Shown here piece after piece: positions 8,402 through 24,523 of a DNA stretch of 24,960 bases (the first letter of the stretch is position 1; each line of letters begins with the position of its first letter). The DNA comes from a virus. The notes under the pieces were generated by a model that saw nothing but the letters and a program-made list of their open reading frames with translations, was not told the DNA's origin and did not search any database. The stretch is taken from IMG/VR virus record IMGVR_UViG_3300009529_000872, positions 1 to 24,960 of that record; one strand, given 5' to 3'. Made by a program: the position numbers and the translations under genes.

Positions 8402-9315
8402 TATGAAACTCCCATTAATGACCGTCTGCGCCGGTTGGCTACCGCCGCGATTTCCCTTGAGAATTGAGCCAGTATTATGCTCCCGTCCGGGAAAAAGTTT
8501 ACGCGCTCACCGGTGTCGTGGCGCTTGCCGTAAAAATAAGCGGGCAAACGAGTACCTAATTCCTGCACGTCGTATACTACATTCCAGCGCTCAATCGTGC
8601 TGGCGTTGTCGTGCGTTGCCGCCGTGTAACCGTTTACGCCCCGTTCTACCGTCAGGGTGTCATCAGCAGGGGCATCGGTGTTCTCCAGGTCGGTAATCAG
8701 CATAAGCTCATCATCAATCCGAATGTACTGATAAATCTGGAACAATAACGCGCCATCATCAGCCAGTGTAATCGTTGTTCCGGTGGTGTCCGCCATTGCC
8801 TCCGCCAGCGTGGTCACGTCGGTGTAAGCGTAGTCACTGCTGTCATGTACGCCCCACTCGCCAACGATGGTGATTTTAGTGTCAAAATCCCGGTCATAAG
8901 ACGGAACTTCATTACCATCAAAAAGTATCCGCGTGTATGGATATTCATCGGCGCTGCTGTTCGTGCCCACTAACCGGTATTCATCAGTCAACGCCGTGTC
9001 ATCCCACGTGATGCTATCGACGCTTAACAAATCTTCCCACAAGTCCAGTACATAACGCCCGGCGCTATTTTTGAAAAAGTTTCCATTTATAATCTCTTCG
9101 CCAAAATATTTATTTTTTGTTGCCGTATATGGTACAAACGTCCGATTGGTCTGGGTCTCAATCATGACCGAGTAGTCGCGGCAATAACGTTTGATTAAAT
9201 CCCAATCATCATCAAATTTCGTTTCAGTTGTTGACGTTGCCCCGGTGTTAGCCTTGTGCAATTGCTGCAAAATCAATGCCGGTGTGGTGTAGATACTTGG
9301 CGGTCTATTTTGCAT
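8401..9315 (-). CDS. Head-tail connector (adaptor) protein with inserted beta domain
   Basis: A 304-residue protein from the ATG at 9315 (MQNRPPSIYTTPALIL); a GTG two codons earlier is the alternative start. The N-terminal helical part (DWDLIKRYCRDYSVMIETQ, then TNRTFVPYTATK) follows the pattern of the gp6/gp15-type adaptor that docks under the portal. Residues about 165-245 form a beta module with the recurrent phage pattern YIRIDDELMLITD, LTVERGVNGYTAATH, interrupting the fold. A C-terminal helix rich in Arg (EIAAVANRRRRSLMG) could contact DNA or portal. Family adaptors are usually 100-200 residues, so this one is enlarged. It overlaps the preceding AT-rich gene by 11 bases. Confidence 0.65.
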   Translation of the reverse strand: MQNRPPSIYTTPALILQQLHKANTGATSTTETKFDDDWDLIKRYCRDYSVMIETQTNRTFVPYTATKNKYFGEEIINGNFFKNSAGRYVLDLWEDLLSVDSITWDDTALTDEYRLVGTNSSADEYPYTRILFDGNEVPSYDRDFDTKITIVGEWGVHDSSDYAYTDVTTLAEAMADTTGTTITLADDGALLFQIYQYIRIDDELMLITDLENTDAPADDTLTVERGVNGYTAATHDNASTIERWNVVYDVQELGTRLPAYFYGKRHDTGERVNFFPDGSIILAQFSREIAAVANRRRRSLMGVS

Positions 9316-10530: not shown

Positions 10531-10537
10531 TGTTTAA
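10518..10537. repeat. 20-bp direct repeat at a start codon, copy 1
   Basis: A 20-bp exact match to 10818-10837 that spans the first codons and the initiation region of the gene starting at 10530. Here the GroES stop TAA lies inside the repeat three bases before the ATG. Confidence 0.9.
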
Positions 10538-10830
10538 TCCTTGATAATTCCTAGAATTTCGGTTTCCTTCATGATGACAAATTTTTCACCGTTTAACTTG
10601 ACCTCAATGCCGGCATATTTCGCAAAAAGTATACGGTCATTTTTTTTGACATCTAACTCTATGCGTCCCCCATTGTTATCGCGCCTGCCAAGTCCAGCAG
10701 CTAAAACTATACCCTGCTGTGGTTTCTCTTTGGCTGTCTCAGGTAAAAGTAATGCACCACCTGCGATAGCCTGGTCTTCTTCAACCAACTTAATCATAAG
10801 TCGGTCTTCTATAGGTTGAAATGTACTCAT
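10534..10830 (-). CDS. groES: Phage-encoded GroES-type co-chaperonin
   Basis: A 98-residue protein that matches Cpn10 end to end. PIEDRLMIKLVEEDQ (residues 6-20) corresponds to the family's PLxDRVLVK start. AIAGGALLLPETAKEKPQQG at 21-40 is the mobile loop that contacts GroEL and the following strand. LDVKKNDRILFAKYAGIEVK (59-78) and FVIMKETEILGIIKD at the C-terminus complete the fold. GroES caps GroEL and closes the folding chamber; phage versions such as T4 gp31 reshape the cap so the host chaperonin can fold capsid protein. This one is close to bacterial GroES in length and motif. No GroEL is encoded here, so host GroEL is the presumed partner. The ATG overlaps the previous stop as ATGA. 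Confidence 0.95.
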   Translation of the reverse strand: MSTFQPIEDRLMIKLVEEDQAIAGGALLLPETAKEKPQQGIVLAAGLGRRDNNGGRIELDVKKNDRILFAKYAGIEVKLNGEKFVIMKETEILGIIKD

Positions 10831-12652: not shown

Positions 12653-15322
12653 CTACACCGTGATGTCAAACGTGCCAGCAGCCGCATTATCCCCGCGTGC
12701 CGCCAGGATATGCCGCACACTGACCACCACAACTGTTGCACTAGACTGAGCGTAACGCTGCAATTCAACAGTAACCTCACGCTTGCGTCCATACTGCCAG
12801 TAAGGAGCATAAATCGCCGCTATGCTGCCTTCTGTGTTATTGCCAGCCGTATCGTGAATAAACCCGGTTGCCTGTGACAATCCCATTTGCCCGGACATGT
12901 AAACATCTACCCCGAACAGGGTTGGAATTTGACCGGCAAAGGACGAGTTCAGAACGGTTGCATCGGTAGTCGCAACATCCCGTGTCAACAATTCCGGCAG
13001 TTTGCGAGTAGCGGATTCGGTGTCGCTATCTACAACAAACAACATCATATCGCGCCGCTTGCGGATGGTAGCATCAAAGAGTTTCAGTGTGTCCTCATAG
13101 TCTGTGATTTGCAATCCAGCCGCCGCCGCGTTGCCGCGGGCGGTGAAGTCCACTAGATATTGATGTCGTATTCCATCCCACGCGATGTAGTCCGGTGTTT
13201 GAATACCAGTTGCCGGTACGCTGGTGGTGTTGATATTAGCGGCGGTTGCTGTGGTATCGCCGTTAATTAGCACGCTTTCCAGACTTTCGGCCAGCGTGAT
13301 AACCGCATCAGTATCTACAAACCCGACAATAGCGATAATGCTGTCTTCGTCCAGTTCGTCGGTATACGATACCGCCAGCATGTGCTTCTTTACATCCTTC
13401 TCAACTTCGTCAGTCGTGAACGGTGTAGTTTGCACCACAACTTCAGGCCGTCCGGTTGCGTCGGTGCTTTGCGCTTCCGGCGCGGTATAGACGGTGGGGG
13501 AGCCGGTGTTTAGCTTGACATTCATCGTTTTACCGGTTACATCAGCCGTCCGCATTCCACGCGCTACCAACAGATTAAACAATTCGGTGTCGTGCCGCGC
13601 ACGTTCCCATAGGCGGGTGTCATACCAGATAAACGCCCATTCAGCACCTTGATTTGTGATTGCAACTGCATCCAACTCATCGGCTTTCCACGGCATAGCT
13701 GCTTTCATCAGAGTACGGTCACGCGCAAGAGCGCGGTCATACCGACCAACACCCTTAAATCCTTCGCTGCCGCGGTGGTCGTCATTGACCTTATGCGCCA
13801 TGACCTTCAGATATGATTCGGAAACCGTTCCAGCTTCGACAAGATGTTGCAACTTCATACCCTTCGGTATCCCATAGGGGAAATGCTTCTGAGCCATAAT
13901 CCGCAATCCCAGCGCCATCTCCTCAGATGACAACCCGGCGTATTTCATTTCCTCATCTACAGAAATGTGCATTGCCGGTTGCCGCTGTGGATTACCTTCC
14001 TGTTGGCTGTAACCCCCGCGCTTTTTCTTATAACTTGTGGCGGGGGCGTTGGCCTTTACATCATCCAGAACGTCAGAAACCAACCCTTTTCGGTTGGCCA
14101 CGTCCTGTGCTTGTTTGTTTAGGTGTGCAGTCACCGCATCCGGCAACCACTTTCTCAGATTGGCCTTGACGATTTCATCTACATCTTCGTCTTCTACCTG
14201 TTTTAGTTCTTCCTCTTCCTTCGGTAGATCGTCCTCAGCCTTGCCCAGCATTTCATCGAGAAGCTCTTCCTCCTCTTGCTTCTCGGGTTCCATGCCGATC
14301 TCGTCAAGCAGTTCAGCCAGAATTGGCTCGACTTGCTTGGCAATCTTCTCCATTAATTCCTCTATATTCATGGGAGTAGATTCCTCTTCCTCGTTATTTG
14401 ATTTTCGATTTGGTTTGGTGAGAATACCTGCTAAACGCGACGTATTCACACCATCTGGTGCCGTCGCGCTTCTGGAAACGTCAGCGGCGCTTGTCCCGGC
14501 AGCTAACCCGGAATCGCCTACCCGTTCCCCTTTCGCGGTTATTTCTTTTTCTATTCTAAAGGTTTTCCTTTCATCTGTCAAATTTACAACTTCAGCCATA
14601 GCCGATTTGAACCTTACCATCGGCTGATGATCGTCAGCAGGCGTGGGTGTTAACGCCCCGTGTACTATGCCACAAATGTCGATATGCCCCGTTCTGTCAT
14701 TGACGTAAAATGCGGCGGGGTCAGCTCCCATGCTCATCTGTAACGGCACTGTTGTTATTAATTCCTGCACCGCTTTCACGGCCAAGCCTGATTTACGTTT
14801 CAACTGGGAGTCGTTTAGCTTGAGTTCCTTAAGCCTCCCCATTTCGCGTAGCATATCTATATAGTGAGCGCGGTCATTTAGCTGCGCCTCGACAAATAAC
14901 CCGATGTCGTCTTCGTCTTCAAAATCAAAAACAGCCATATTGAGCGCCCCAAATTCAGGCGTTAGCATGTGCTGGTAATTAGCCGGGCGGCCTTTAATAG
15001 AATAGCCGTTGTTGCGCATGAAATACGTCTGCCTATCAAACCACTCTTCATCCAGGTCTTTATCTTTAGGAGCGCCATAACGCACTAGATAGGCTTCAAA
15101 ACGGTCTGGAGCCGTCGCCTTGATAACTCCGCCCGCCCGCGCCCTACGTCCCTTGCTGCCCTGAAGGCGCGCCAGTAACGCAAGCCACTCCTGATCGGAG
15201 TACGCGCCCTTACACTGCTCATATACAATTGAAGCTGCTACATCAGGGGGGTGTCCAGATTGAATTAGTTCGCGGATATTCTCAGAAACAGTGGAATCAC
15301 TGTATTCATCTTGTAACGGCAT
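12653..15322 (-). CDS. Fused prohead protease - scaffold - HK97-fold major capsid protein
   Basis: An 889-residue protein that appears to hold three functions. Residues about 70-260 resemble the HK97-type (S78) prohead protease: NYQHML with His118, LFVEAQLNDRAHYIDML (142-158), LQMSMG with Ser197, and HGALTPTPAD at 221-230, where the family has SLTPTPA. Residues about 305-425 are acidic coiled coil (EEEESTPMNIEELMEKIAKQ onward), as in a scaffold. Residues about 540-889 look like an HK97-fold capsid protein with an N-terminal ITNQGAEWAFIWYD and a long beta/helix core. In most phages these are two or three genes. The 5' gap carries AGAGGAG seven bases before the ATG and a good promoter further up. 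The protease would mature the shell and remove scaffold. Residue assignments are from motif reading. Confidence 0.85.
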   Translation of the reverse strand: MPLQDEYSDSTVSENIRELIQSGHPPDVAASIVYEQCKGAYSDQEWLALLARLQGSKGRRARAGGVIKATAPDRFEAYLVRYGAPKDKDLDEEWFDRQTYFMRNNGYSIKGRPANYQHMLTPEFGALNMAVFDFEDEDDIGLFVEAQLNDRAHYIDMLREMGRLKELKLNDSQLKRKSGLAVKAVQELITTVPLQMSMGADPAAFYVNDRTGHIDICGIVHGALTPTPADDHQPMVRFKSAMAEVVNLTDERKTFRIEKEITAKGERVGDSGLAAGTSAADVSRSATAPDGVNTSRLAGILTKPNRKSNNEEEESTPMNIEELMEKIAKQVEPILAELLDEIGMEPEKQEEEELLDEMLGKAEDDLPKEEEELKQVEDEDVDEIVKANLRKWLPDAVTAHLNKQAQDVANRKGLVSDVLDDVKANAPATSYKKKRGGYSQQEGNPQRQPAMHISVDEEMKYAGLSSEEMALGLRIMAQKHFPYGIPKGMKLQHLVEAGTVSESYLKVMAHKVNDDHRGSEGFKGVGRYDRALARDRTLMKAAMPWKADELDAVAITNQGAEWAFIWYDTRLWERARHDTELFNLLVARGMRTADVTGKTMNVKLNTGSPTVYTAPEAQSTDATGRPEVVVQTTPFTTDEVEKDVKKHMLAVSYTDELDEDSIIAIVGFVDTDAVITLAESLESVLINGDTTATAANINTTSVPATGIQTPDYIAWDGIRHQYLVDFTARGNAAAAGLQITDYEDTLKLFDATIRKRRDMMLFVVDSDTESATRKLPELLTRDVATTDATVLNSSFAGQIPTLFGVDVYMSGQMGLSQATGFIHDTAGNNTEGSIAAIYAPYWQYGRKREVTVELQRYAQSSATVVVVSVRHILAARGDNAAAGTFDITV

Positions 15323-16662: not shown

Positions 16663-17061
16663 TCAATCTATTTCCCAACTTTCAATCTTTTCAAACCGAT
16701 AGCTACATTGTTCAAATAATTCTGCATTACGTGGTGACATTGGGAAATACCGACAAAGCACTTCTCTTGTGCCGTTATGTGAAAAACAAGAATTTCCTTT
16801 CAAATCTTCGCAAGGTTGAAAATCTTTATCGTTGTTATCAATTCGCACATCCCAAAAATAATTGTCTTTGCCGTCCACTTGGACTTGATTGCATATACCA
16901 TGATAATTACCATTGGCCGTAGCTTCCTGTACATTTATATCTTCACTAGGCTTGTTGTATTTGACACATACTCGACAACAGTCTCCGCACTGATTACACT
17001 CGCCTCGACGTTCCCATTGCACAACTTCATTCTTATCAAAATCCCACTCGTAAATCAGCAT
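16663..17061 (-). CDS. CxxCxxCC metal-binding protein, YkgJ-like
   Basis: A 132-residue protein from the ATG at 17061 (MLIYEWDFDKNEVVQW), chosen because GGAG lies eight bases upstream; an in-frame ATG eight codons earlier is less well placed. Residues 22-30 read CNQCGDCCR, the signature of the putative zinc- or iron-chelating YkgJ family. The expected partner cysteines follow: Cys84 in PCEDLKG, Cys92, and LCRYFP with Cys103, matching the family's CRxFP ending. In cells these proteins probably bind iron or zinc; their biochemical role is poorly known. The phage role is unknown. It lies just before the structured RNA. Confidence 0.78.
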   Translation of the reverse strand: MLIYEWDFDKNEVVQWERRGECNQCGDCCRVCVKYNKPSEDINVQEATANGNYHGICNQVQVDGKDNYFWDVRIDNNDKDFQPCEDLKGNSCFSHNGTREVLCRYFPMSPRNAELFEQCSYRFEKIESWEID

Positions 17062-17118
17062 ATGTTTCACTCCATTATGGCGCATGTAAATGCGAATTTT
17101 AACGCGCTATCGTCTCAG

Positions 17119-17597: not shown

Positions 17598-18530
17598 TCA
17601 TCTAAGTGGTTGATACTCCACTTCTTCTAGCTCATTCCGAGTCAACCCCGTCGGCGGTTCGCCCTCGTCTTGATACGATAAATATTTACTACCCTCGCGG
17701 GTGACTTCATTCCCGTCGCCGTCCCATGTTTTCACCGTCACATCTGGAAACTCCACTTCATCTTCATCTGGCGGTATTTGAAACGCCGGTTGCACTACGG
17801 TTTCCACTAGCTCCGCGTCCTGCCATTCTGGGTAATCGTCCGGTTGTATCGGGAACTCCGGTCTGATGCTAGGCGAATTGATTTTGGCATATTTAACTTC
17901 AGTATGCCCACCACTCAAACTGGTACTCGTATCCCCCTGCGTATTCAGCCAGTCAGCAATGCGCCCGGTGAGCAATTCCCACAGGTTGTCTCTGATTTTC
18001 TCTATGGTGATGTTGGCGGCAAGTAGTTCATTGTGCGCGTCTTCCTTGTGCGATTCGCAGTTCGGGCAAGTTTCCCCGCGCTCAGTCGCCTCGTCTGCTT
18101 TAATCAACTCCCATACCACCGCTAATGAGGGATAGATTTTCCCCTTATAGTCTACCGTGCCATCGGGGAATATTCGGACTACATCGGGATCGGCTACGGT
18201 GGGATATGATATTTCCGGGCCATAAGCGTCTGTGAGTGCATCTTCCAGTTCGGTTTCCAGTTCGGCTATGCGCTGTTGGCGGTGTTTCTCACCACTACGG
18301 AAACATCTTAATTCAAATTCCGCCGCCGCCAGTTCGGTCTTGAGTTTATGAATTTTTTCTAAACACTCGACGTTACTATCACGACAGTTAGTAAGCCATG
18401 TTTCCAGTTCGGCTATGCGCTTTTCATAGCGTTCTACTAGATGGTGATATTCTGTAAGATGCCAATCTTGGGTTTTAATCCTTTGCTTCAACCGCTTGAT
18501 TTCCTGCTTGCGCTTGCGTTTCTTGCTCAT
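17598..18530 (-). CDS. Coiled-coil protein of unknown function
   Basis: A 310-residue protein from the ATG at 18530 (MSKKRKRKQEIKRLKQRI), chosen because AGGAG is six bases upstream; a TTG two codons earlier is the alternative. Residues 5-100 form a strongly basic then mixed coiled coil. It contains two near-identical units, RIAELETWL at about 38 and RIAELETEL at about 87, exactly 49 residues (seven heptads) apart. Next comes a beta-like section (VRIFPDGTVDYKGKIYPSLA), a lone CPNC pair and a Pro/Asp/Glu-rich C-terminal half. It resembles no family I know. It is encoded directly after the proteasome-like gene, two bases before its AGGAG, so a partnership is possible but unproven. Confidence 0.7.
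   Translation of the reverse strand: MSKKRKRKQEIKRLKQRIKTQDWHLTEYHHLVERYEKRIAELETWLTNCRDSNVECLEKIHKLKTELAAAEFELRCFRSGEKHRQQRIAELETELEDALTDAYGPEISYPTVADPDVVRIFPDGTVDYKGKIYPSLAVVWELIKADEATERGETCPNCESHKEDAHNELLAANITIEKIRDNLWELLTGRIADWLNTQGDTSTSLSGGHTEVKYAKINSPSIRPEFPIQPDDYPEWQDAELVETVVQPAFQIPPDEDEVEFPDVTVKTWDGDGNEVTREGSKYLSYQDEGEPPTGLTRNELEEVEYQPLR
18253..18274. repeat. 22-bp direct repeat inside the coiled-coil gene, copy 1
   Basis: Identical to 18400-18421, 147 bp apart, which is 49 codons or seven heptads. It encodes the RIAELET unit and keeps the coiled coil in register. Confidence 0.85.
18400..18421. repeat. 22-bp direct repeat inside the coiled-coil gene, copy 2
   Basis: Partner of 18253-18274, in the same reading frame of the coiled-coil gene. 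Confidence 0.85.
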
Positions 18531-18539
18531 GCTCAACTC

Positions 18540-19091
18540 CTAACCTATCGTATCAACATAGTACGGGGCGCATACCGACATCGTGAGTTGCCCAGAAATT
18601 TCTAACGCGGTGAGTATCCGTTGCTTAGGCGGCTTGTCTGCCAGCGCAAGCATTACTCCTAACGCATAGTCGCCGCCACTGCCAATGGTGAGAATATCGT
18701 CAGACACCGAATGAACTTGGAAGTCCTCATAAATGCAGAATAACTGCCCTTTGATACCGATTATAAATCTTCCCTGTTCGCTTATACTTTCAGTCTCATT
18801 TTCTTTTTTCATCCATCCATGCTCTTGTAGCGTTTTTCGCAGTAAAGGCACAAACTCGCAGACAAGATACTTCTCGACGGGTACTGTAATTTTGGGCGGT
18901 GTCACATGGTAATGTAATATCTGCTCAGTTCTCACACTGCCGCTGTTGCCAATCAGAATGCGGTTGTCATTATTGCCAATACGAAAGACCTTCTTTTGGC
19001 TGGTTGGTCTCGTCTCCCAACCAGACGTCGTGCAACTGTCGCCACCGATGTACACTTTCTTTTTGTGCTTCAGGCCGATTATGCAGGTCAT
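18540..19091 (-). CDS. Proteasome beta / HslV-like Ntn-hydrolase
   Basis: A 183-residue protein beginning MTCIIGLKHKKKVYIGGDSC. If the initiator Met is removed, Thr1 is the N-terminal nucleophile, GGDS places Asp at 17 and KKVFRIG places Lys at 33, exactly the spacing of catalytic residues in proteasome beta subunits and HslV. FIIGIKG (109-115), LTIGSGGDYALGVMLAL (134-150; the GSGG motif with its conserved Ser) and ILTALEISGQLTMSVC (159-174) continue the fold to a VDTIG end. The length is that of HslV (about 175). Such enzymes cut peptides inside stacked rings fed by an ATPase; none is encoded here, so it would use a host ATPase or act alone. No propeptide is present. The ATG overlaps the upstream stop as ATGA. 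Fold call firm, substrate unknown. Confidence 0.88.
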   Translation of the reverse strand: MTCIIGLKHKKKVYIGGDSCTTSGWETRPTSQKKVFRIGNNDNRILIGNSGSVRTEQILHYHVTPPKITVPVEKYLVCEFVPLLRKTLQEHGWMKKENETESISEQGRFIIGIKGQLFCIYEDFQVHSVSDDILTIGSGGDYALGVMLALADKPPKQRILTALEISGQLTMSVCAPYYVDTIG

Positions 19092-19312
19092 TTCTTGGAT
19101 ACCCTTCCGCCTCCAGGTCTACCCTTGCAAAAGTCAGTGCCCCGCTCCCGGTCTAGCGGATAGTTGCCATGTACCGTTTGCGGCGTAATATCGCTGTCTG
19201 GCTTCCGTTTGCGCTTCGGCTTCTGCCTGCCTGAATTCCAGATCATCTCGCAGACTCGGATTGTAAGCAACGTATACACCAGACAGGTGATTAACTCTCG
19301 ATATGGGAACAT
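19088..19312 (-). CDS. Small basic protein with N-terminal hydrophobic segment
   Basis: A 74-residue protein starting MFPYRELITCLVYTLLTIRV. Residues 8-19 form one short hydrophobic stretch that could anchor in a membrane, followed by a very basic region (RQKPKRKRKPD) and a Gly/Arg tail (CKGRPGGGRVSKK). The Shine-Dalgarno is weak (AAGGGAA). It overlaps the previous gene by 22 bases and the proteasome-like gene by 4. A membrane or nucleic-acid role is possible; family not recognised. Confidence 0.55.
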   Translation of the reverse strand: MFPYRELITCLVYTLLTIRVCEMIWNSGRQKPKRKRKPDSDITPQTVHGNYPLDRERGTDFCKGRPGGGRVSKK

Positions 19313-20689: not shown

Positions 20690-23053
20690 TTATGAGTGCA
20701 ATCCCACTCGCGGCAAGCGGCCTCTAGATATGCGCTGATCGGTGTCCGTTAGCACACATCCACATCTAAATCCGTGGCAAGCCAACTGCCACGATTTTGG
20801 GATTACGCCGCTGTTGCGCCAGAAACTAGCCCGCCGAACTTGCCCGTTCAAAGCAGCACAAGAAACACAATGTTCCTTACGGACATCCCATTTCCATATT
20901 AAAGCCTTGTCACCGGACGCAACCAGATACCCCGTCTCCTTGACCATCATGTACCGCGCTACCCACAGGTCAACCCTACTCCGCACTGACTGCAACTTGC
21001 CCACGTCCTTACGATTGCGGTAGATGTAATCGGCCAATTGGCTGACGAAGCCCTTCTCGTTTTCAATCAGGTCGTCAAGCTCCTGACGTTCGCTGTCTTC
21101 CAGATCGGCAACTGCCATTCCGCCCCGTTGCACGCCCGATACAAAGGCCGAACGGAACTCGCGTTCTATCAGGTTCTCCATGCCGACTTCGTACTGCCCC
21201 CGACTTACGCTGTTATTCCACAAGCCCCGCGCCAACTCCCTGATGCCGCGTTGGTAGCTGGTGATAGTCTTGATGTGCGGCGCGTCCATTACGGTATCGA
21301 AAGCGTTCACAATTTCTGATTTACGTTTGCATTCGTCCAGCCGGTCTATGATTTCAAAGCGTACCCACGGCGGGATGATCTCAGTCTCAAATTCGCGTGT
21401 TCGTTTCTTGCGTGGGTTAGCGCCAAACCGTTCTACCTCAAATCTTTTCCAGGCGTGCAATTCACGGGCTAGTCGTGCATCTATGACTTCCTCAGCCGGA
21501 AACAAGTATTCGCCCTCGTATAGCTTGAAGTGCGGCAACAGGTCGGGCGCTGATTTGGTTTCATCGGTCTCGCCAACCCCCTCCACCAGTTCACCCGCCT
21601 GAGCTTCCTCTTCCTCCGCGGCTGCTTCGGCCTCAATAGCAACGTCTCGCGCTTCGCCCTCAACTACCGGTACTCCCCCCTCTGGCGTTGGGATAACTTC
21701 CTCTGGCGCGGTAGGCTCTGGTAATGGCTTGCCCGTGATTTCTTCAGCCCCAAATGGCGACGGCGCGACAAGCAACTGTTTTTCCCACAAGTCCTGAATT
21801 TCATCTAGTGGAACAAACAACTCGCCAATGCGGTAAATGCCCCTTAGCTTTTCAGGCGGCTCTAGTTCTTGTTTAGCCGCCGCGTCATACAGGTCAATTA
21901 TTCCGTCCCTCAGTTGGATGCTCGTAACCTGCGCCTCTAACATATCGGCATCGGTCACGGTATCATACGGCGACGTATCAAACTCAAGTATCGTCATGCC
22001 TTCCAGGTCAAAGAAGGGCATAATTTTTAAGTTGATGTACCGCTGAAACACATGCGCCAGAGGGATAACCCTGTCTAGATAAAAGCGTTGAATTAAACCG
22101 TCGTCAGTTTTATATGGCGACGTGTTGGTATTGCCGCGCATGGCTTGCGGAACCCCAAAAGCGTCGAATATATTTTGCGACTGTTGGGTATTGAGTTGTA
22201 AGTTCTTGGCTATGTCGGGCTGCTCAAATGCTGTAGCCTGAACAGGGTGCCTAACTACCATCGTATTGTATTGTCCGCCAGCGCCCTTTAGCTGCTCGCG
22301 CACTATGTTAAGCATCCTTTGATGATCTTCAACAGACCATATAGTTTCTTCGCTCAATGGCGTTATTATCATGCCGGGTCGGGCATTGTTTATGAAGTAG
22401 TCGCGCAACCAGCGGTCAAGGTTGCGCGCTATGTTAATTTCATCCAACACCGTTAAAGCCGTGGGCAAACCTACAAAGTCGCTGTTAGGGTTGCGGTTGT
22501 GCAAGTACGCCACACGCTCCGGTTCGAGGTTGACATACACCATGTTCCAGCCGTAGCGGAAACTATCTATCGCGCCGCTGTGGTGGTCAACTTGCACGCC
22601 CAACGGATTAAGCCACTCCAATGATTTATTGCTGCCGAATACGTTCTCTACTTTCTCAACGTAAAATTCACCGTATAGCAGGTAGTCGGTAACCATCACG
22701 TCCATGAAGCCCATGTCGTTTTCGTCTTCAAATCTGAGCAGCGCTTCCGACAATGGATGACGGGGCAGCAAGTCCATGCGGTTAGCTATAGGGTCGCCGG
22801 TCTCGCCTTTTCGAACACCGTCGGGATAATGCACGATGTTCCAGTCCAGCATACCGATACCACTCACAATCGACTGAATGCAGGCGTTAACTTCATACAC
22901 CATCGTGTACGCCGCCGCCGCCCCCGCCTTGCTAAAGGTGATGTCCTGGTTGGGACTGACGAAGCCCAGCGGCCAATAATCGGAGCTACCGCCAGAGAAC
23001 GGAATACTTTTAAGAGCCTTTGGTTTGCGCTTGAATCTATCCAATAATGCCAT
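20690..23053 (-). CDS. Portal protein with C-terminal MuF-like domain
   Basis: A 787-residue protein. Residues about 25-430 are a phage portal: conserved-type stretches include AYTMVYEVNACIQSIVSGIG (48-67), MVTDYLLYGEFYVEKV (120-135), RVAYLHNRNPNSDFVGLPTA (180-199), a helical DRWLRDYFINNARPGMII (213-230), and NIFDAFGVPQAMRG (294-307). An acidic low-complexity linker follows (430-500, many Glu and Ala). Residues about 510-787 resemble the MuF minor head protein, ending in the cysteine set Cys729, Cys732 (HCVSC), Cys759 and CGC at 764-766. The portal forms the DNA channel; MuF-type domains are thought to sit inside the head. The two are separate genes in many phages. A GAGG site lies nine bases before the ATG. 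Confidence 0.9.
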   Translation of the reverse strand: MALLDRFKRKPKALKSIPFSGGSSDYWPLGFVSPNQDITFSKAGAAAAYTMVYEVNACIQSIVSGIGMLDWNIVHYPDGVRKGETGDPIANRMDLLPRHPLSEALLRFEDENDMGFMDVMVTDYLLYGEFYVEKVENVFGSNKSLEWLNPLGVQVDHHSGAIDSFRYGWNMVYVNLEPERVAYLHNRNPNSDFVGLPTALTVLDEINIARNLDRWLRDYFINNARPGMIITPLSEETIWSVEDHQRMLNIVREQLKGAGGQYNTMVVRHPVQATAFEQPDIAKNLQLNTQQSQNIFDAFGVPQAMRGNTNTSPYKTDDGLIQRFYLDRVIPLAHVFQRYINLKIMPFFDLEGMTILEFDTSPYDTVTDADMLEAQVTSIQLRDGIIDLYDAAAKQELEPPEKLRGIYRIGELFVPLDEIQDLWEKQLLVAPSPFGAEEITGKPLPEPTAPEEVIPTPEGGVPVVEGEARDVAIEAEAAAEEEEAQAGELVEGVGETDETKSAPDLLPHFKLYEGEYLFPAEEVIDARLARELHAWKRFEVERFGANPRKKRTREFETEIIPPWVRFEIIDRLDECKRKSEIVNAFDTVMDAPHIKTITSYQRGIRELARGLWNNSVSRGQYEVGMENLIEREFRSAFVSGVQRGGMAVADLEDSERQELDDLIENEKGFVSQLADYIYRNRKDVGKLQSVRSRVDLWVARYMMVKETGYLVASGDKALIWKWDVRKEHCVSCAALNGQVRRASFWRNSGVIPKSWQLACHGFRCGCVLTDTDQRISRGRLPRVGLHS

Positions 23054-23065
23054 GATGTAATTCCT

Positions 23066-24523
23066 CTATATCATCTTGCAGACACAATCCCACGCCAGCA
23101 TCCGCGCTATCACGGTGTCGTCATGAGCGCCATCCATGTGTTCAAATCTGTACTTGCCCGACTCAAGCTGGTTACTGATAAACGTCCTAAGCTCCGATGT
23201 GGCATAATCCACGTCTTGTAACTTTAATCCGGCGTTGTGAATGCCGTCGTACAGGTTGCTCACCAACTTTTGCTTCTTGCGGTTGTCCATCGTAATTGAC
23301 CGCCGGGTGATGTCAACGCCCGCATCAATAAACTTGTCGTCCATATTTTCGATGTTAACTGTGCCCATGCTGTTCTTTTCAGGTTGGATGGTTTCCACGT
23401 GCCACTTAGCACAGTTGGCTACAATGCGGTTTTGCATTTCATCCCACGGCATTCTACGCCAGCGCCCGATAAACACCTCTATATCGTCCGTCGCGTCAAT
23501 GATGCTCAGTGTGGTGTAATCGTTCTCTTGCCCCCAGTCCACGCCCGCCATGTATCTATGACCCTCGATGTACTCTATTTCTTCCATCTCATCTCGTGTC
23601 AACAGACAATGTTCGAACTCTCCGAATACGCTGTTGCCGTCACTCAAGAAACACTGCCGAACGTCTTCCGGGTATTCCTGTTTGAACGTATACGGCAACT
23701 CTTTAACCTTAGCCCGCCGCCACTTGATCTGTTCCATCGTCAGTTCATGGTGAGATACTAGACGCTTTTCCTCTTCACTTAAATCCAGCACCTCACCCTC
23801 ATCTAATAATAATCTATATTTCGGCTCCCACCACCACGGGTAGAAATGGATCGTCCACGGGCTATCGCCGTCTAGAGCTTCCATACAACGCTCGTAAAAC
23901 CAGCCGCGCGCGCCATCGGGCGTACTCTCAAATACGATTGTGCCGTTGGCGGGTACACCCTGAATCAGGTTGCTCATGATGCTTTCGGCATCTTTCCACT
24001 TAGCAATCTCCGTGCCGTGTACATGATGGTACACCGCGCCGATTCCGCTGGTCGGGCTGCCCGCCGTGGTCAACGTCACGAGGCTGTTGGTAGCCGGATA
24101 TGCTATCTGCGTGGCATTATCAATTGAGCGCTCCGGTTTCATGGCTTCCGGCAAATTGTCGTAAAAGCGGCGGTGCATCCTGCGCATGGTGTTAGTAGTA
24201 TTGGAGTCGTGCGCCAACGTCGCCGCCAAACACGGCTCGAATGCCACGCGCCGAAACTGTAATGCCTGGATAAACGTTGACATTCCCAACTGCCGCGCCT
24301 TCACAATCAAATCGCGCCCCGTCAGTTTGGGGTACAAATCAAGCTGCGCTGGTTTCAATTCCATTGGCACAATCGTACCCGTCTCTTTGACTTGCACCTT
24401 CAAGTTATGAGATGCGAATTCTATGAAGGGCAATGCAACAGCGGAGCTTGTCGGAATTCCCAACAACCCCGCTACAAATACACTATCGCTTATGCCTTTA
24501 CTGTGCGAACTGGTCTCTACCAT
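23066..24523 (-). CDS. terL: Terminase large subunit (TerL)
   Basis: A 485-residue ATPase-nuclease that pumps DNA into the head. KARQLGMST at 75-83 is the Walker A variant; AVYHHVHGTE at 163-172 is the Walker B region, ending in the catalytic Glu with HGT before it. FESTPDG (198-204) is the coupling motif. In the nuclease domain Asp329 (VDWGQENDYTTL), Glu382 and the AHDD pair at 466-469 give the expected acidic metal-binding set. Length is usual for the family. The ATG lies inside the end of the small-terminase gene (26-base overlap) with no clear ribosome site, so it is coupled. The sequence is complete. Confidence 0.93.
   Translation of the reverse strand: MVETSSHSKGISDSVFVAGLLGIPTSSAVALPFIEFASHNLKVQVKETGTIVPMELKPAQLDLYPKLTGRDLIVKARQLGMSTFIQALQFRRVAFEPCLAATLAHDSNTTNTMRRMHRRFYDNLPEAMKPERSIDNATQIAYPATNSLVTLTTAGSPTSGIGAVYHHVHGTEIAKWKDAESIMSNLIQGVPANGTIVFESTPDGARGWFYERCMEALDGDSPWTIHFYPWWWEPKYRLLLDEGEVLDLSEEEKRLVSHHELTMEQIKWRRAKVKELPYTFKQEYPEDVRQCFLSDGNSVFGEFEHCLLTRDEMEEIEYIEGHRYMAGVDWGQENDYTTLSIIDATDDIEVFIGRWRRMPWDEMQNRIVANCAKWHVETIQPEKNSMGTVNIENMDDKFIDAGVDITRRSITMDNRKKQKLVSNLYDGIHNAGLKLQDVDYATSELRTFISNQLESGKYRFEHMDGAHDDTVIARMLAWDCVCKMI

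Follow-up and report, generated by a model that had tools for sequence, protein, structure and literature searches.

A most likely AAH-type proteasome-family threonine peptidase encoded between the portal and capsid genes of a phage

The window (the whole stretch of 24,960 nucleotides analysed here, from virus record IMGVR_UViG_3300009529_000872) is a linear fragment in which the terminase (23066-24523), portal, peptidase, capsid and tail genes follow each other on the same strand (Table 1). Since terminase, portal and capsid profiles match the neighbouring genes, the peptidase gene resides in a phage. An earlier, sequence-only reading had located the open reading frame exactly, without giving its (minus) strand, and had put it in a cassette; the profile matches indeed place that cassette between the portal and capsid genes. 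The gene runs from the ATG at 19091-19089 to the stop at 18542-18540. The frame is open over 192 codons and holds no earlier ATG, GTG or TTG; because there is no other in-frame start, the encoded protein must begin with Met-Thr. The overlap with the upstream ORF implies translational coupling, and by its arrangement the gene belongs to the run of late structural genes. To the genes immediately beside it no function could be assigned. The accessory cassette also encodes a cysteine-rich protein, and a co-chaperonin gene lies among the head-tail genes; Psychrobacter phage D'Alembert (L002) encodes relatives of both the co-chaperonin and the peptidase.

Table 1. Features of the peptidase gene and its surroundings in the window (active-site residues numbered with Thr as 1)
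Feature	Position	Strand	Evidence
Proteasome-family (Ntn) threonine peptidase subunit, most likely AAH type, 183 aa	18540..19091	-	ORF, PF00227, phrog_1040, AF2 model, tree
Thr1, predicted nucleophile once Met is removed by methionine aminopeptidase	19086..19088	-	residue 2 of the model is superposed on residue 1 of BPH and HslV
Asp17	19038..19040	-	invariant in 14 phage homologues
Lys33	18990..18992	-	invariant in 14 phage homologues; present in 55/57 rows
Oxyanion-hole glycine (Gly47 equivalent)	18948..18950	-	invariant in 14 phage homologues
GSGG motif (Ser129 region)	18672..18683	-	GxG (first and third residues) invariant in 14 phage homologues
Predicted long, mildly acidic pore loop, H2 to next strand, residues 91-106	18774..18821	-	model and loop comparison
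Shine-Dalgarno-like GGAAGGG, 10 nt 5' of the peptidase ATG (putative)	19102..19108	-	read from the sequence
74-aa ORF upstream; its TGA overlaps the peptidase ATG (ATGA)	19088..19312	-	sequence/ORF reading
312-aa coiled-coil-like protein, downstream; start 3 nt past the peptidase stop	17598..18536	-	ORFs and profile searches
Portal protein, upstream of the peptidase	20690..23053	-	PF04860 2.2e-24, phrog_12 2.4e-32
Major capsid protein with N-terminal extension of about 580 residues, downstream	12653..15322	-	phrog_10 1.6e-7, PF05065 4.5e-4 (below its cut-off), C-terminal part
Cysteine-rich protein, CxxCxxCC-like pattern, accessory cassette	16663..17085	-	PF03692 below cut-off
GroES co-chaperonin among head-tail genes	10534..10830	-	PF00166 6e-27

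The family assignment is supported by profiles as well as by individual residues. The Pfam Proteasome profile PF00227, the search proposed earlier, matches the peptidase with an E-value of 1.1e-4, exactly at its curated cut-off, and the viral family phrog_1040 matches with an E-value of 2.4e-16, its description 'peptidase HslV family' being an annotation name only. In the alignment of the 14 phage homologues Thr1 is near-invariant, and a Thr or Ser occupies this position in 56 of the 57 aligned rows. The variants in the family alignment comprise a Ser1, a Cys or Thr within GSG, and a Glu17 in two IMG/VR members; because of such variants Ser129 was not treated as required. The two viral homologues with Glu in place of Asp17 (L041 and L050) represent a variant active site. 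The protein thus combines the features that define the superfamily: a Thr/Ser nucleophile with Asp17, Lys33 and the oxyanion glycine, and a beta-sheet core flanked by the helices H1-H4. The Met-Thr start, Asp17, Lys33 and GSGG motif pointed out in the sequence-only reading are present as claimed, and the profiles, the invariance and the structural model together indicate that their alignment is not accidental. Its description of the product as a proteasome beta/HslV-like and probably active enzyme accordingly finds support in the profiles, conserved residues and predicted fold. We regard membership of the proteasome-family Ntn hydrolases as virtually certain, and judging from the conserved sequence the enzyme is very probably active. 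No experimental test of any member of PHROG 1040, or of the phage family, was found in the literature.

For the AlphaFold2 model, relatives from viral and bacterial contigs were used; it reached high scores (pLDDT 93.2, pTM 0.89) and contains the complete beta core and all of H1-H4, with H2 formed by residues 72-90. HslV and BPH ranked first in a Foldseek search with this model (E-values of about 5e-11 to 1e-10). By VIA-align the model superimposes on BPH with Z 20.6 (169 residues, 2.5 A) and on HslV with Z 19.6 (166 residues, 2.5 A), which is effectively a tie. The Ntn hydrolase fold, which had been left as a point that could fail, is therefore predicted over the whole chain.

The relation to HslV holds for the fold, for Thr1/Asp17/Lys33 and for the GSGG motif, and to that extent the earlier label 'HslV-like' stands; in the strict sense it does not. 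The NCBIfam HslV models give the peptidase 34.1 and 31.1 bits, against cut-offs of 137 and 157.75, and give E. coli HslV 304 and 288 bits. In addition, the HslV pore segment RTDRxLRKLEA is absent from the peptidase and the protein falls outside the HslV clade, so that an HslV orthologue was rejected. The window, itself a fragment, contains no hslU. The trees included HslV from E. coli and other species, BPH, short PPH-like proteins, and phage and bacterial relatives; the BPH reference L207 was confirmed by its match to PDB 5ovs (E-value 2.6e-80). The peptidase was found outside the HslV, BPH and PPH-like clades alike. BPH (PDB 5ovs, 5ovt and 5ovu; PMC5777263) shares with it a long acidic pore loop, the absence of a propeptide and the lack of the basic pore cluster of HslV, and is its best structural match (HslV being tied within 1 Z unit), but forms a separate clade, and BPH membership was rejected on this ground. 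PPH is likewise a phage-borne group-I proteasome homologue; whereas it has about 140 residues and lacks helix H2, the peptidase has 183 residues with H2 present, and its clade is separate from the short PPH-like proteins, which excluded PPH as well.

Instead, the peptidase is part of a clade of 22 rows (support 98/90; L243, L244 and L245 included) that unites phage proteins with proteins from plasmids of Rhizobium, Sinorhizobium and Streptomyces. Among plasmid proteins it best matches those of Sinorhizobium (4e-29) and Streptomyces (1e-22). Two chromosomal genes of Myxococcota encode its nearest relatives, the closer-scoring one being 41-44% identical; support for this pairing is moderate, with 97/82 and 90/90 in the two trees. 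Fuchs et al. (2021, PMC8665760) described the AAH type, which many phages share with alphaproteobacteria, Streptomyces and Firmicutes. Because the distribution of the relatives equals that of AAH in that study, and considering the tree, we take the peptidase to be most likely an HslV/BPH-related 'group I' protein of the AAH type. In line with this it is predicted to be a compact group-I subunit with H1-H4, without a propeptide and without an extra C-terminal helix. It differs in being at most 36% identical to the Rhizobium, Sinorhizobium and Streptomyces plasmid proteins and in sitting among phage head genes, and it is possible that it belongs to CPH or to an unnamed neighbouring group rather than to AAH. 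The novelty implied by the sequence-only reading did not survive, since phage members were described in 2021 (PMC8665760): the peptidase is a divergent new member of a known family. Among the bacterial relatives, the Myxococcota genes lie at 8496-9029 (L236), directly following a gene for a putative FHA-domain protein, and at 2405-2941 (L202); the relative on plasmid B of Sinorhizobium americanum (L243, 6001-6546), a symbiotic megaplasmid, lies inside a nif cluster between nifQ and nifS.

A structural difference from HslV concerns the pore, where the loop of the peptidase takes the place of the short basic RTDRxLRKLEA segment. In the 57-row comparison the segment from H2 to the next strand counts 21 residues in the peptidase (5 acidic, 3 basic), 12 in HslV (net positive) and 23-26 in BPH (6-10 acidic); in the phage proteins and their bacterial relatives, with the PPH-like proteins left out, it counts 14-22 residues and is mostly net acidic. 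The link in E. coli HslV is short and basic (RTDRMLRKLEAL), and its Arg86, Arg89 and Lys90 are required for activity (PMC5777263). In BPH this segment is replaced by a long acidic loop and no unfoldase is known (PMC5777263); the loop of the peptidase is shorter and less acidic. By analogy, the missing HslV segment argues against the use of host HslU, and its hijacking by the phage enzyme seems unlikely.

A search for an AAA+ unfoldase revealed no AAA_2 domain in the window. The earlier remark that no ATPase gene is visible is thus correct for the window, which as a linear fragment proves nothing by itself. Of 18 phage genomes encoding relatives of the peptidase, 17 lack the AAA_2 domain (ClpX/HslU/ClpA). 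The exception, phage 121Q, encodes a Clp-like protein of 771 aa; next to its HslV-like gene lies a gene for a ClpP-like protease. AAA ATPases of the PF00004 type are found in 14 of these 18 phages, and many have the size of clamp loaders; since large phages commonly encode generic AAA ATPases, PF00004 was dropped as an uninformative marker. An AAA+ partner for these homologues was also missing in the study of Fuchs et al. (2021, PMC8665760). HslV without HslU had been reported earlier from a jumbo phage (2020; PMC7823757). We therefore think it likely that the peptidase has no dedicated unfoldase.

Combining these observations, the following mechanism can be proposed. The Met-Thr start and the lack of a propeptide suggest that the host methionine aminopeptidase would remove Met1 and thereby expose Thr1. 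Going by the fold, the subunits would form a homo-oligomeric double ring like that of BPH or HslV, and on the strength of the model we consider ring assembly probable. No dedicated AAA+ unfoldase would be needed for substrate chains to pass the pore, whose lining would be the long acidic loop; as the conserved residues suggest, Thr1 would then cut them with the help of Asp17 and Lys33. The gene order suggests that the gene is transcribed together with the late head genes and coupled to them in translation, so that unfolded or selected host or phage polypeptides may be degraded independently of ATP, late in infection. As a whole, an active group-I ring peptidase that is made late and degrades polypeptides without ATP is the explanation we favour, and we hold it to be reasonably probable. 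The late degradation is suggested by the arrangement of the gene with late head genes; bulk or selective degradation as the actual purpose of the enzyme is put forward tentatively. The protein shares no more than 42-44% identity with any known protein, too little for a function to be transferred. Several points weigh against the favoured explanation. The pore loop is less acidic than that of BPH. A non-Clp partner among the AAA ATPases is possible, and HslU, ClpX or Mpa could be supplied by the host. Moreover, no protein was found to interact with BPH in published pull-downs, nor was BPH able to substitute for other self-compartmentalising proteases (PMC5777263), which makes ring formation without bulk degradation conceivable.

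The peptidase belongs to a family that is widespread among viruses. At E < 0.01 it matches at least 178 phage records, and a degenerate DNA pattern for GSGGD[YF]ALG, used to find relatives in IMG/VR, identified true family members in 119 of the 120 stretches listed, that is, on at least 119 contigs of uncultivated viruses. The same pattern was far less specific in bacterial genomes (14 of 79 matches real, the rest mostly chance). Scans of viral_contigs with single proteins (the peptidase, the capsid fusion and the terminase) yielded no close relative, and a comparison of the portal protein with Myxococcota genomes, intended for host inference, gave no match.

The genomic context of the relatives varies between lineages and was for that reason rejected as proof of function. 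In T5-like, jumbo, Vibrio and Geobacillus phages the gene is found beside genes for thymidylate synthase, DHFR, ribonucleotide reductase or PhoH and has no head genes as neighbours. Such a position among accessory and metabolic genes in large phages, together with the patchy spread over unrelated phages, plasmids and bacteria, would suit a host-takeover or counter-defence factor that eliminates particular regulators or defence proteins of the host; for jumbo-phage peptidases with a patchy distribution an action on the host has in fact been proposed (PMC7824862). In the window, however, no substrate, adaptor or defence gene is linked to the peptidase, which travels with late genes, and we consider this role unlikely.

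A different context is seen in about 71 of the 109 uncultivated-virus loci listed, where a portal gene (phrog_104, 4e-29) lies directly upstream of the peptidase gene and is itself preceded by the terminase gene. The orientation is the same in every case, and a protein of about 150 aa and a giant one of about 1800 residues are encoded downstream. The full order in this group of probable actinophages (L043, L083, L006 and about 70 others, and also the record ct2KA10) is terminase, portal, Ntn peptidase, the 150-aa protein, the giant protein, a scaffold-like and a capsid-like protein. At least one of the giant proteins has an ADP-ribosyltransferase domain (L122, PF03496, 4.5e-15). A WhiB-like ORF, read by eye on L043, points to actinobacterial hosts. 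With the DSL-LC01 phage protein as query, 296 actinobacterial genomes gave no match, a blank that we ascribe to sampling or sensitivity because Streptomyces plasmids do carry relatives. The portal-linked context appears to be new with respect to Fuchs et al. (PMC8665760), who found the gene context uninformative and reported no AAH from actinophages. These loci essentially represent one lineage and prove no function.

Head-maturation proteases usually lie directly behind the portal gene. The portal-linked loci, and in the window the position between portal and capsid genes on the same strand, coupled to the neighbours, therefore raise the alternative of a virion-processing protease that cuts the capsid extension, a portal-associated or a giant internal protein during assembly, and so fills or supplements the slot of the head-maturation protease. 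The sequence-only reading had taken a serine protease to be apparently already fused to the capsid protein; such an S78-type fusion is unproven. Profile searches (Pfam, PHROG) with the 580-residue N-terminal extension matched no protease, which favours the alternative. The first 37 residues of the capsid ORF do match phrog_2423 (9e-9) and are 46% identical to the N-terminus of the head-maturation protease (DUF2213) of Acinetobacter phage WCHABP12; the remainder up to the capsid part matches nothing, and a stand-alone single-sequence model of the extension is too poor to decide (pLDDT 46). By eye an HK97-like pattern can be read in the extension, with His, GLxV and then GLAV in place of the GMSV of HK97; this would place Ala at the nucleophile position, with Ser three residues before. 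Against a virion-processing role, the portal-linked loci stem mostly from one lineage, the genes of the T5-like, jumbo, Vibrio and Geobacillus phages sit away from head genes, and active sites in the interior of a ring suit unfolded chains and not precise cuts in an assembled procapsid. For the phage in the window we judge the role improbable; the broader notion that a proteasome-type threonine peptidase has replaced or supplements the serine head-maturation protease of some tailed phages, and processes capsid, portal-associated or giant injected proteins, appears more doubtful still. Docking of the phage protein on host HslU (or ClpX), redirecting ATP-dependent proteolysis, would agree with the HslV fold and with phages mostly lacking a dedicated unfoldase, but is very unlikely given the absent conserved pore segment, the scores far below the HslV orthologue cut-offs, and the loss of the HslU interface in the related BPH, to which no HslU was found bound (PMC5777263).

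ATP-independent degradation by a ring peptidase, the reading preferred here, bears on a larger group of proteins. Phage proteasome homologues are common, and in the literature we found none for which a substrate is reported. The peptidase and its relatives have an intact active site, lack the HslV pore segment and mostly occur without a Clp/HslU unfoldase, and this combination makes them good test cases for ATP-independent barrel proteases. More specifically, the T5-like members make the role directly testable on E. coli K-12, and the portal-linked group offers one lead, a specific head-assembly hypothesis that would be surprising if true. In Aeromonas phage 2L372X (L018, 3001 onward) two adjacent genes are annotated as peptidase HslV family, and a ring of two different subunits is possible there.
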